Source: Trebouxia sp. TZW2008
Lineage: Eukaryota > Chlorophyta > Trebouxiophyceae > Trebouxiales > Trebouxiaceae
Direction: 5' to 3'
Length of the DNA stretch: 64,000 nt
NCBI GenBank assembly: GCA_002118135.1
Contig: BDIU01000186.1
Coordinates: 248,001 to 312,000 of the forward strand
The notes beneath the pieces are model-generated. The model made no database searches and was not told where the DNA came from. It saw only the letters and a program-made list of their open reading frames with translations. How positions within the stretch are numbered: position 1 is the first letter of the stretch; each line of letters begins with the position of its first letter. The position numbers and the translations under genes were made by a program. Shown here one piece after another: positions 10,601 through 63,200 of this stretch.

Positions 10601-13600
10601 GTAAAAGAGTCTGGCTTCTTTAGAAGGCGGCATTGCATAGACGGCAGCTTTGCTGAGTATCAAAAAGTAACTGGTGTAAGTGATGTGTGTGCAGGCCAGT
10701 GCTCATCAGAGAGCAGGGCGTGCCGGGCGTACGCAACCCGGCAAGTGCTTCAGGCTGTACACAGAGGCGTCCTTTAAGAAGGACTTGCAGGAGCAGACCT
10801 ACCCTGAGATCCTGCGATCCAATCTGGGCTCTGTGGTGTTGCAGCTGAAGAAGCTTGGCATTGATGACTTGGTCAGCTGCTCCCGTCACTTGCATGCTGC
10901 TGCTTTGTGCATCGTGATTTCTTTTTGTTTTCTTTTGTCCTTTTCTCTTTGCGCTGCGTGTTTGTCGTTAATCATGTGCAGCACTGCCAACTGATGTTGC
11001 TTAGTTGTGAACAAACCAGGGCATTTTTGTCAGCACCGATGCCTGCAGAAGTGGATGTCCTTGGGTGTGCTATTAACAGCTGTTATTGCACTCGAGATCA
11101 CATGTAGTGCCTGTGCAAAGCTTGTTCCATGATTCAATACATGTGTAGTGCCTTTTTCCAGTGCTATGATGATAACAACATTCCTCGAACTGACTGGTCT
11201 CTGGTGAGACCTTGAAGACTACTATCTACCCATAGAAGTTGAGCACTGAAAGGCACAAACTGCATGAGCCACCTCTGTTGTGTTTATAGCCTGTGATGAT
11301 TCATCAACTACAACCTTATCTACATTGTCTCGATTGTGACCTCGGTCACATGATTACACTTAGTTTCTGAGGCTGTCATTGTTGCCCATGTGTTCATGTT
11401 GCAGCCTATCAAGAGGCAGTACAACATCAAAGGGTTCAATTGCTTCATAGGTGCATTTTGACTTCATGGATCCTCCCGCCCCTGAGACTCTGATGCGTGC
11501 GCTTGAGCTGCTGAACTACCTGGGTGCGCTTGATGATGAAGGCAACATGTCCCAGGTACACCCTCTGTGTCAGCCGTGTCTTTCCTCTGCGTCCAGCAGA
11601 ATGCTTTCTATGTTGTCTACTCTTTGAGTGTCATCACTCCGTGAATAGAGCCTCACAGGCAGCAGCTGGTGTGCTTGTTGTCTGAATCAGCACCGCTGAC
11701 CTTGCATGGGCCTGCCTAGAAGAATGTGACGGTTCTCCTCTGCTGCTAATTTCTTTGCAAGCCCCAGTATTCTTCCTGTGTGATCTCATGCAGCTTCCAC
11801 ATCATCAGCCTGTGCATGTCATGCCCTTGTGCATCCTTTGAATGCATTGTGCATCACCTGGCAAGACAAAACTTGAACCAATGCATGGCAAATCAAGATG
11901 AGGTGCTGATGAGTCTTACGCGCCGCCGTGTGCCTCTCTCCGCATTTGTTCCAGGTTGGCCAGATCATGAGCGAGTTCCCCTTGGACCCTCAGCTGGGCA
12001 AGATGCTGGTCGCCTCCCCCAACTTCAGGTGGTCAATCCATCAGGGCCCGTCAGCATTCGCAGTCAGCCTAGTCTTGCTGTACCAGCTGCAGAACAAGTC
12101 AGCCTCGTGTTGCAGTGCCAGCCTGGCAGCATCAGCAGACAGCTTGCATCATCAGCAGACAGCTTGCATAACAAATGGGCTGCATTGAACATCAGTTTCA
12201 ACTTTCAGCCATTGCTTGGCAGGGTCTGCAGCTTGTTGTGCATCATAGACATCACTTTGCACGACCTGTGTGTACAAATGTCACTTTGTAGCACGCTTTG
12301 CAGTTTCACCAGCTCAGTAGCAGCTCAGCGTCAGGTGAGCAATGGTTCGCTTATTTTTACGGCGTCACCTGGGCTTTTCTCCATGACAGTGGCAGGCAGC
12401 ATGCTTCGGCAGCACAGCACAGACTGCCATCTTTCAGGCTTGGCGGCAACAGCAGCAGCAGCAGCAGCAGCAGCCCTGTCAGCTACATACAGACCCAGGC
12501 TCTTGGCAGCTACTTAGTATGCTCGCTGCATGATGCAAAATTGACAGCATTGCGTTTGCATATGGACTTATGGGCGCCTGATTGGGCCCTTGTGTGCTAC
12601 CTGCAGTTGCTCAAACGAGATCATATCCATTGCTGCCATGCTCAGTGTGCCTAACGTGTTCCTACGGCCGCGAGAACAAGCCAAGCGTGCTGATGAGGCC
12701 AAGTCCAAATTCACTCATGCTGATGGTAAGGCAATGCAGCTGTGTCTTGTACAAGAGAATGTCTGCGGGTGTAACACATCAAATGCAGACTGCTTGTGCT
12801 CTTCTTCACAAGCGGGTGCTTGCTGTAGACAGCCACTCATGTGCTCGAACAGTCATGTTGTTTGTGATGGTTCAGGTGACCACCTGACGCTTCTGAATGT
12901 GTACCATGCGTACAAGCAGAATCAAGAAAGCGGTGACTGGTGCTATGATCACTTCCTGAACCAGAGATCCTTGAAAGCTGCAGACAGTGTTCGCACTCAG
13001 CTGGTATGACTTCATGTCTTTTGTCCATCTCATGCATCTTTTCTAGCAAAACATGCCTTGCTTTGTACACTAGTGTGACATGTGTGATTACTGCGCAGCG
13101 CACCATATGCTTTCCTCGTTGGCTGTTCGTTGCATCAACATTGGTGACCATTCAGCTGGTATGACTTCACTGCTTATATATGTATATTTCAGGCATTGGT
13201 CCCAGCAAAATATGCACTGCTTTGTGCACAGGTCGGACACTTCCCAAAAGTTGCTGTGCATCACAGCCTTGTCATGGCAGCAAAACTGGTGACATCACAT
13301 ATGACATGCTTTTGTGTGCATAGCAATTGTGCTGCGCGTAATGACTGTGCATGCCTGTTGCAGGTGCGCATCTGTACACGCATGGGCGTGGAGATGAAGA
13401 GCACAGACTTCAGGTCCAAAGACTACTACACGAACATCCGCAAGGCAGTCACTGCAGGCTACTTCATGCAGGTCTGCCCCTGATCTCTCTCTCTTAATCC
13501 ATCAGAAAGCTCTTTTGCCTTGATGCTGAGAGACTGCTCACGCACCTGCAGTTGAAAATCCATGTTGAGCAGCCACTTTTCAGCTACTTTGATGTTTCAG

Positions 13601-60261: not shown

Positions 60262-63200
60262 ATGCCCGAGCGGAGTGCGCCATCGCAGAGCCCGTACTTG
60301 AAGACTGCCAAAGATGTCATGGCTGGCACCTGCGGTGCGTTCATGATCAACCACACGGATCAACACTTGCAGTCAAGCAAGACCAACTTACCGTTCAAAG
60401 CCCGCTTGCAGGTGGTATTGTCGTAACGTTTGTTGGGCATCCCTTCGACACTGTCAAAGTCCGGCTACAGACGCAAGACATGGCCAAGCCTATCTACTGT
60501 AAGCACAGCTGCTTGCACATGCTTATGAGACATTCAAGCCTGCTTTCAAGTCACAACTATTTACATGCAGCTGGAGCACTGGATTGTGCCAAGAAGACTG
60601 TACAGTGGGAAGGCCTCACAGGTCTCTATAAGGTGCGCATTCCTAAGCATATAAGCATACAGAGTGCTGCGTCGCATGGCAGAGAAACAGGTTTGACTTG
60701 ATTATGACCATGATCCTGCAGCTTACTTGAGGTTTGTACAGCCATGTGAGCCTTCCGTTCAAAACGTGCAATTTTATCCCACAGGGTGTCACCTCGCCTC
60801 TGGCAGGACAGATTCTCTTCAGGTCAACCTTGTTCGGCGCATTTGGCCAAGCAAAAACATGGCTGGCTACAAACAGTGATGGCTCCAAGCGGCCTCTGCG
60901 TACTGCAGACTACTACAAGGCAGGCCTGCACGATTCCAAGCCATTTTGGCTGAATGCTATGCATCTTCTCGGCATTGCATTGTTGAGCCTAACATCACTG
61001 CCAGCTGCTGCAAACCTGTCCTCGTCACACTGCTGACGTGAAAATGTCATCCTGCACCTGGGGACTGCTTCCTGTCACTGACGCTCATGCTCCCAGACAA
61101 AAGTATGTTCCTGGCACTTGAGATACAGTAAAGTCTCTTTGTAAGGACACTCAACGCAAGGACAATCTTGATATAAGGACAGCGCCATCAGTAATCAAAT
61201 ACTGCATTCTCACTGCAGTGGTCCCATTAAGTAAGGACAATTTGATGTAAGGACAATTCTTTTTATATCCAAAACAGTTGGTACAAGAGAATACTGCAAT
61301 GCCAAGAGGTTTGCGTGTGAATGAGAGTGCAGCAAGTTGACGCTGGTGCTGTGATGTTGCGGCAGGCAGGTGCCATCACAGGCTTCATTGCAATTCCACA
61401 TGTTGCACCTGGCAACTGCTTGCCATTGAACTCGTTACGTGAAATCAAAAACCCATTTCTTGTGCATGAATTCTGTCTTTTCCTTTACAGCATTGAAAGT
61501 TTTGCTGTGGTGTTGTGGCAGGCAGGTGCCATCACAGGCTTCATTGCAGCATTTGTGGAGGGACCAATCGACTTCTACAAGTCTCAGATACAGGTCCAGA
61601 TCATCCGGTCTAGGGCTGACCCCAACTACAAACGTAGCTATGCCAGCTCACACGCCTTTCTGCACCCTCACACTCCTGCATACCTGCTGCACTATGCCCA
61701 AGTAGATGCATTTGCACCATGTGTTCCATGCTGATTATTGCACCATCTACAGCCAACCTGCATAGCATGCTGCACCTTGTCAGCAAGGCTTCTGCAATGC
61801 ACCCCATCTCTCAAATCCTGCGCATATTTTGACAGCAAAAGCAGGCACGCTCTCCTTGATTGTTTGCAATGCTGACTTGAGGAACCTTAGACAGCGTGTG
61901 TCAAGGACTCGTCACTCTCCCTTGCATCACTCAAACGCTTTGCTCACCCCTGTCTTGTACAATGCAACCGCCTATACAGTGATATTTGACTGTGTCAAAG
62001 TCAGCCTGACTCTTGTGTTTGTGGGATGCAGCTGCTTACACAACAGTGTTTGATTGTGTGAAAGCCACACTAAGGAACAACGGTATCAGGGGGCCTTTCC
62101 AAGGGCTGTCAGCCACTTTGGTCAGAAACACCCCAGCCAACTCAATCTACCTTGGTAGCTTTGAGGTGATGAAGGAGCAGATGGCACAGTATAAGGGCTG
62201 TGAAAAGACACAGCTGCCTGCTGCCTGGGTAAGCCCAGTGCTTACCAATCCACTCAACCCTGTCCTCAAATGCCCAGCTGTGAATCAAAAAGCTTAACAC
62301 AACCAGAAGACTTTTTGATCACAATGCGCGAGGCTCAACAGGGGGTTCAAAACACTGTGTCAGTGTAGCTGTGGTCTTGGGGTTCTTGAGCACAGACTCA
62401 GTCAGCATGTGCCAAGCACAGAACAAAAGGGCAGCTTGAAAGCTGAAGGCATGCTTGGCCATACGAGGCTATGAGACCATTCTCAGTATCTGTCAGCTAG
62501 TGATCAACAAGACTTAGCGCGGTGTACAATTGTGAAATGTGCACATGCTAGTCATCTCGGCACTCAGCTGAGCATGCAAAGCAGCGCTCAGCTGCCTTCG
62601 GACACTGTTGGCTTGCATGCAAGCATGTATGCAGAAAGAGGTCAGCAACCCGACAGGCAGGGATGTAACAGAATTGCCTCTCAAATCCAGAAAATAGCAT
62701 GCCGGTGCTTAGATTCAGACTTTTGGCCAAATAGAGAACTGGTAAGACCTTAAGTTTGGGTCCTCTCCACGAAGTAGTGATGGGTTCGAATCCAGTATGT
62801 TGCATTGCATGCGCAACATTCACCAACATCAGTGATTGTTGGACTGCAGCCGGAGCTGCAGTGTATGCTTTTGTGCAGCATGCACAATCATTACTGTGAT
62901 GCTGCGCATAGGTGTTGTCAGCTGGAGGCCTAGGTGGGCTGTTTTATTGGCTAGCCATCTACCCTGTGGATGTTATCAAGTCAGCTATGGCTACTGACAG
63001 CATAGAACCCGGCAAGCGCAAATACCCTACGATGGCCACTACATATCAGGTACTGTCCACACATGTTTGTGTGTTGTGTGAGTGCAAGCCAATTGCATGA
63101 TCCTGACTTTTGCTGCATGGCCCCCTTATCTGGCTCAATGTGCTTGCATGCGCAACATGATTGTGGGTGCACGCAACCTGTCCATGTGTGAAATGACACA

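Follow-up and report, generated by a model that had tools for sequence, protein, structure and literature searches.

Ghost exons in a Trebouxia genome: local tandem duplication in units of about 130-200 bp as a probable source of longer introns

Intron gain by tandem duplication has reportedly been described by Rogers and by Hellsten, the latter for ATP2A1, and patch-mediated duplications are said, going by a title, to occur in rice. Four further systems come close to the phenomenon considered below. A potato RdRp gene provides a case of intron gain by tandem duplication (PMC4974935), and Exonize catalogues degenerate and intronic exon duplications (PMC12343006). Staggered breaks in mammalian cells lead to small tandem duplications by Pol alpha-primase fill-in and end joining (PMC8355091), and introners are algal, intron-building elements found near nucleosome linkers (PMC9860276). 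Exon copies within introns, intron gain by duplication and introners are thus known already. Our subject is the presence of ghost exons, decayed copies of exon edges in adjoining introns, in the green lichen alga Trebouxia sp. TZW2008, where their density and characteristic unit length are the notable features. They were first seen in a window of 64,000 nucleotides (bases 248001-312000 of contig 178 in a 68.5-Mb assembly of 527 contigs; GC content ~0.50; 72 N). The analysis added 230 kb from the window's own contig and 13 others, giving a total sample of 294 kb on 14 contigs. We consider it likely that they record the repeated copying, throughout the genome, of local segments head to tail, with lengths of ~130-200 bp preferred; the spare copies would be spliced out as the introns lengthen.

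Ungapped self-alignment of the window (segment score of at least 12.5, offsets 50-299) returned 47 segments, short-unit arrays counted in; five order-2 shuffles of the window gave 3, 2, 1, 3 and 4, and real sequence compared at offsets 5000-5249 gave 5. With the score raised to at least 17, neither control gave any, the far offsets across all 294 kb as well. The copies reported in the original prediction are therefore real. Thirteen tandem-duplication clusters of the window have an offset of at least 100. The assertion that such copies always span a splice junction applies to ten of them; two abut an exon edge or lie just inside it (16474/16635 and 20911/21024), and one is intron-only by gene model (17714/17873). 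In the total sample, 148 clusters were recorded, merged by overlap in a manner that may mask separate events. We set aside 48 with offsets below 60 as short-unit arrays, leaving 100, and counted event classes in the 76 with offsets of 100-235 (0.26 per kb). Three of 17 sampled sequences held no cluster of this class; if the sample is a fair one, scaling suggests, very roughly, a genome total of ~18,000. Offsets of the 100 clusters fall at 130-200 in 56 cases, below in 31 and above 200 in 13 (median 151.5), and the counts in successive equal bins are 31 (60-130), 56 (130-200), then 8 and 3. The medians inside the window (157.5, n=14) and outside it (148, n=86) are in agreement, so that the local duplication originally proposed, in roughly nucleosome-length units, is supported far beyond the window. 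Per kb of opportunity, cluster density (offsets 100-235) is 0.50 in introns (46 clusters) and 0.11 in intergenic DNA (9 clusters), a 4.4-fold difference. Resemblance to the duplications catalogued by Exonize lies in exon copies, some of them degenerate, within introns of the same gene; the Trebouxia copies differ in their high density, their unit of ~130-200 bp and the frequency with which they straddle an exon edge, as in 10 of 13 window cases (PMC12343006).

The arrangement of the copies is that expected of local tandem duplication: adjacent direct copies recur at constant offset, with adjacent full-length copies in several clusters, and among local pairs in 130 kb direct orientation far exceeds inverted (57 versus 4). 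That same ratio rules out inverted-repeat elements. At least three copies are indicated in 32 of the 76 clusters, by a loose criterion. That the repeats are carried by dispersed elements resembling introners or miniature inverted-repeat transposable elements (MITEs) has some appeal, in that introners are known in algae and show a preference for nucleosome linkers (PMC9860276). When four units were sought throughout the 68.5-Mb genome, one by an exact 30-base pattern and three by a DNA search scoring the best candidates only, they nevertheless matched nothing except their own tandem copies, and we regard such an origin as exceedingly improbable. The system is like introners in being algal, intron-building and tied to nucleosome spacing (PMC9860276), and unlike them in that no dispersed family was seen: the four units tried occur beside their source alone, in place of many dispersed copies. 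A dense array of 24 segments at an offset of ~184 bp also occupies positions 67-1501 of one sampled stretch (L010), near the start of its contig and partly labelled coding.

Several lines of evidence suggest that the copies in introns are dead. In the two genes tested, hevein-GT (P0241) and alanine-glyoxylate aminotransferase (AGT, P0121, just beyond the window), where exons and ghosts were placed by mapping the proteins of Trebouxia orthologues, each duplicated segment is single-copy in the orthologue, whose protein aligns both to the real exon and to ghosts, six in hevein-GT and four in AGT. Mismatch between exon and intron copies at codon positions 1, 2 and 3 is 0.143, 0.133 and 0.235 (n=920, 922 and 919). 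The corresponding values are 0.203 where two intron copies are compared (n=2,884) and 0.124 for intergenic pairs (n=515), all figures being biased to similarity by their origin in local alignments. In the 17 clusters that contain columns of both types, mean mismatch is 0.145 for exon against ghost and 0.224 for intron against intron. This is the neutral-looking pattern of a free ghost facing a conserved exon, ~0.13 being contributed by the ghost alone and nearly double where neither copy is constrained. Functional alternative (mutually exclusive) exons would be compatible with the five of ten ghosts in these two genes that lack a stop in the matched piece, for example that of AGT at 65548-65444. 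In-frame stops are present in the remaining five, divergence at the first two codon positions is ~0.14, and the third-position ratio of ~1.7 arises because the real exon accumulates silent changes. Coding constraint on both copies, the mark of tandem exon duplication with alternative splicing, was not found. We therefore hold functional exons to be very unlikely, and the suggestion of failed exon duplication, where function is implied, gives way to neutral copies. Twenty ghosts precede their exon on the 5' side and 19 follow it on the 3' side, and there is accordingly no transcript polarity. An artefact of assembly might be suspected in a genome of 527 contigs and a window containing 72 N; copies that differ by a median of ~15%, with codon-position structure, make it scarcely credible.

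How such copies would bear on introns can be put as follows. In the nuclear DNA of this alga, local units of preferably ~130-200 bp have been duplicated in direct orientation time and again, mostly in genes. Where the unit covers an exon edge, one splice site would continue in use and the second copy would be stranded in the intron; such a copy would be neutral because it is spliced out, and would decay as a ghost exon within an intron that is now longer. Intron growth would thus be a natural consequence of the local duplication process. Consistent with this, at least 20 bp of duplication arm is present in 85 of 339 predicted introns, and the median length of these is 446 bp, against 280 bp in the 254 without an arm, a difference that by itself is no proof of growth, since longer introns offer more room. 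On the other hand, new introns could arise if an exon segment containing AGGT were duplicated, in which event intron length would equal the offset. Among 263 predicted introns there is one such match, L019 5893-6078 (186 bp), on a duplication of offset 189, together with a second, weaker one at L019 4532-4608. Intron-length diagonals as a whole score at least 12 in 2 of 1,841 tests, as against 28 of 26,300 on shifted diagonals. Introns whose length equals the offset, with splice sites at matching positions, are thus not in excess, and intron birth, which the original prediction had entertained, is accordingly most improbable. The present case resembles intron gain by tandem duplication, as in the potato gene, in that the duplication includes splice junctions and the copy is absorbed by splicing (PMC4974935). 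It departs from that process in the lack of any such excess; existing introns appear to grow instead.

With respect to mechanism, we tentatively suggest that chromatin underlies the length of the unit. Breaks staggered across two adjacent nucleosome linkers might be filled in and their ends joined, or flaps the size of Okazaki fragments might be responsible. The first route would parallel the duplications at staggered breaks in mammalian cells, which share with ours a short segment copied directly and locally, as fill-in is expected to give; the insertions described there, in humans, are shorter than 100 bp (PMC8355091), whereas 76 of 100 clusters here have offsets of 100-235, and breaks in Trebouxia would be hypothetical. 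A more specific alternative is that lagging-strand synthesis itself sets the unit, Okazaki-sized flaps re-annealing and being ligated into tandem copies with short direct end repeats. Okazaki fragments are nucleosome-sized, and the clusters of at least three copies, under the loose criterion already given, would accord with this route. It does not of itself account for the 4.4-fold lower intergenic density, and the copies are heavily decayed; we see it as a possibility on the unlikely side. By extension, recurrent in-place duplication of about one nucleosome's worth of DNA, tolerated by virtue of splicing, may conceivably be a main source of intron length in this lineage, a proposal that we advance with some reserve.

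Several points weigh against the preferred reading, namely local duplication in units of ~130-200 bp. Clusters with offsets of 60-129 are also frequent (31 of 100). A cause residing purely in chromatin or replication would not lead one to expect so few clusters between genes. For the proposed nucleosome-templated duplication, the agreement seen is in length, and the chromatin step would be putative. Fourteen of the 23 stretches sampled outside the window begin at base 1 of their contig and are possibly atypical. Exon and intron labels derive from an ab initio hidden Markov gene finder that was trained on the 294-kb sample, with introns and intergenic DNA sharing one background, and that was checked with one gene, PRP43, after inspection of which its splice-site prior had also been fixed. 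In that one-gene check it recovered 96% of the coding sequence, with 13 of the 14 exon starts and 11 of the 14 ends correct, the PRP43 exons themselves having been placed by mapping with a DHX15 sequence and by hinted decoding. Over the sample it predicted 338 introns (median 298 bp), and it labelled several ghosts as exons.

The same reading must also contend with an apparent preference for exon edges, which would follow if the duplication machinery were targeted there, for example by exon-positioned nucleosomes or by breaks linked to transcription or splicing. Scored by whole alignments, the 76 clusters comprise 52 that involve an exon, 8 with both copies coding, 12 in introns and 4 intergenic, where simulated random duplication with conserved exons gives ~32/39/30% exon/intron/intergenic at divergence 0.10-0.15. 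A junction falls inside an arm in 50 of 95 clusters (offset 60-260), compared with 29.3 +- 4.1 on random placement, and 20 of 46 intron-intron clusters touch an exon, compared with 5.3 +- 2.2 (most 12) on random dropping. The predicted exon median of 146 bp would suit such targeting. Random dropping, however, ignores units that extend past the intron into the exon. When whole duplications are simulated, they touch an exon in 40, 30, 22 and 13% of cases at divergences of 0.02-0.10, 0.10-0.15, 0.15-0.20 and 0.20-0.25, against 43% observed. An intron-intron mismatch of 0.20 corresponds to ~0.10 per copy, and 14-18 exon-touching clusters of 46 are therefore expected; at the divergence seen, the gap amounts to ~0.5 to 2 standard deviations. 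This scoring of intron-intron columns removes the bias that arises from exon-ghost pairs staying recognisable longer. The whole-alignment tests, on the other hand, depend on gene models predicted ab initio and on the frozen exon copy, and are inflated by ghosts that the gene finder called exons. Older simulated ages yield 60% and 86% exon-involving clusters by survival alone (divergence 0.20-0.25 and 0.25-0.30), at an identity of 0.78-0.79 that lies below the observed 0.845. Arm coverage is 0.16 in coding sequence 0-60 bp from a junction, 0.10-0.13 deeper in the exon and 0.06-0.12 in introns. At least part of the apparent preference for exon edges comes from the frequency with which a unit of ~130-200 bp covers one in these genes and from the frozen exon, which keeps the pair recognisable. 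The excess in whole alignments stands, and the intron-intron columns come near to simulated random duplication; targeting, as originally proposed, is unproven and in our estimate rather unlikely, although a modest preference is possible. Among clusters with both copies coding in the sample, the offset is divisible by 3 in 24 of 36; six of them in L012 at 2125-6463, with offsets of 120, 165, 171, 72, 69 and 138, all divisible by 3, probably represent a repeat-protein gene.

Literature searches, not all of which named the genus, listed among titles and opening portions of abstracts no report of a genome pervaded by nucleosome-length tandem duplications that lengthen introns, in Trebouxia or elsewhere. 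In the main text of two Trebouxia genome papers, as available, the word 'tandem' does not occur and 'intron' is found once in one (in the title of a reference) and not in the other. Lengthening of introns is seldom seen, since the source sequences usually vanish; in Trebouxia the source still adjoins its copy, so that the age, placement, unit length and tolerance of duplications become measurable genome-wide. If the proposed process is true, introns would preserve, like fossils, past duplications of nucleosome size from the adjoining exons, and a chromatin-sized unit would tie a type of mutation to nucleosomes or Okazaki fragments. There is also a caution here for annotators, in that ghosts may be called exons, as several were by our gene finder.

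Seven of the eight genes originally named carry copies: PRP43, the Q/R-rich gene, the rhomboid, CBS and rhodanese genes, hevein-GT and the carrier; the kinase, offered as a possible eighth, has none at a score of at least 12.5. On the forward strand, PRP43, a DEAH helicase gene, has an exon end at 13003 with a ghost in the next intron (12994-13229), in which 12994-13014 matches 13149-13169 at offset 155 and 13027-13070 continues the match to 13186-13229 at offset 159. The Q/R-rich gene, also forward, shows a ghost at 16474-16521, upstream of a predicted exon start at 16636 (arm 16635-16682, offset 161; 16474-16682 in all), and its intron-only duplication at 17714-17910 has an offset of 159. 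The gene called CBS, on the same strand, has an exon end at 38372-38420 (predicted junction 38415) and a ghost at 38489-38537, offset 117 (38372-38537). The mitochondrial carrier, likewise forward, was credited with two affected exons; one is clear, a ghost at 61347-61392 of the exon start 61503-61548 (offset 156; 61347-61548), and the second was not recovered. The gene finder missed that carrier exon, and we read its junction by eye from the sequence and from the carrier motif.

The remaining genes lie on the reverse strand. The rhomboid gene, within 20740-21072, has copies at 20911-20959 (offset 113) and 20740-20766 (offset 272) of the predicted exon 21012-21226. In the rhodanese gene (46352-46998) the exon edge 46352-46457 is followed by three ghosts at offsets 179, 181 and 181, making four copies. 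Six clusters fall on four exons of hevein-GT, by the original count of exons. They are the exon edge 50681-50799 with its ghost 50835-50952 (offset 153/154; 50681-50952); an exon edge with a full-length second copy at offset 174 and a weaker third (51234-51682); a ghost at 52068-52155 of the exon end 52271-52358 (offset 203; 52068-52358); an exon start with two copies at offset 120 (52437-52765); a ghost at 53855-53902 of the exon end 54033-54080 (offset 178; 53855-54080); and the exon start 54124-54169 with a ghost at 54402-54447 that contains an in-frame stop (offset 278; 54124-54447). Of the offsets listed originally, 63, 157 and 158 are absent at a score of at least 12.5, and 172 is confined to a fragment scoring 13 within the rhodanese array.

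As regards gene identities, a predicted ribulose-phosphate epimerase of the window is 88% identical to its counterpart in Trebouxia sp. C0010 and 82% to a protein of Astpho2, an Asterochloris; its best match reaches 93%. Pfam matched rhodanese, carrier, chitin-binding and kinase pieces, as well as rhomboid, class-II glutamine amidotransferase (glutamate synthase), 2-hydroxyacid dehydrogenase and SOR/SNZ pieces; it gave no match for the CBS piece tried, for one open reading frame of the rhomboid gene or for P0241. Other repeats in the window include three 78-bp copies at 47720-47953, intergenic by model and 96-97% alike, which is more than most duplications here; coding repeats of 42 bp at 56592-56757, where the predicted hevein-GT gene is rich in Ala and Ser; and short-unit arrays at 17254-17403 (24 bp), 26217-26377 (14 bp) and 53427-53488 (4 bp). 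Elsewhere on the window's contig, stretches L023, L014 and L024 hold genes resembling glutamate synthase, AGT (with a second aminotransferase-like gene, recognised by reading only) and 2-hydroxyacid dehydrogenase, possibly a photorespiration gene neighbourhood, and the first three of these four neighbours contain ghost exons.

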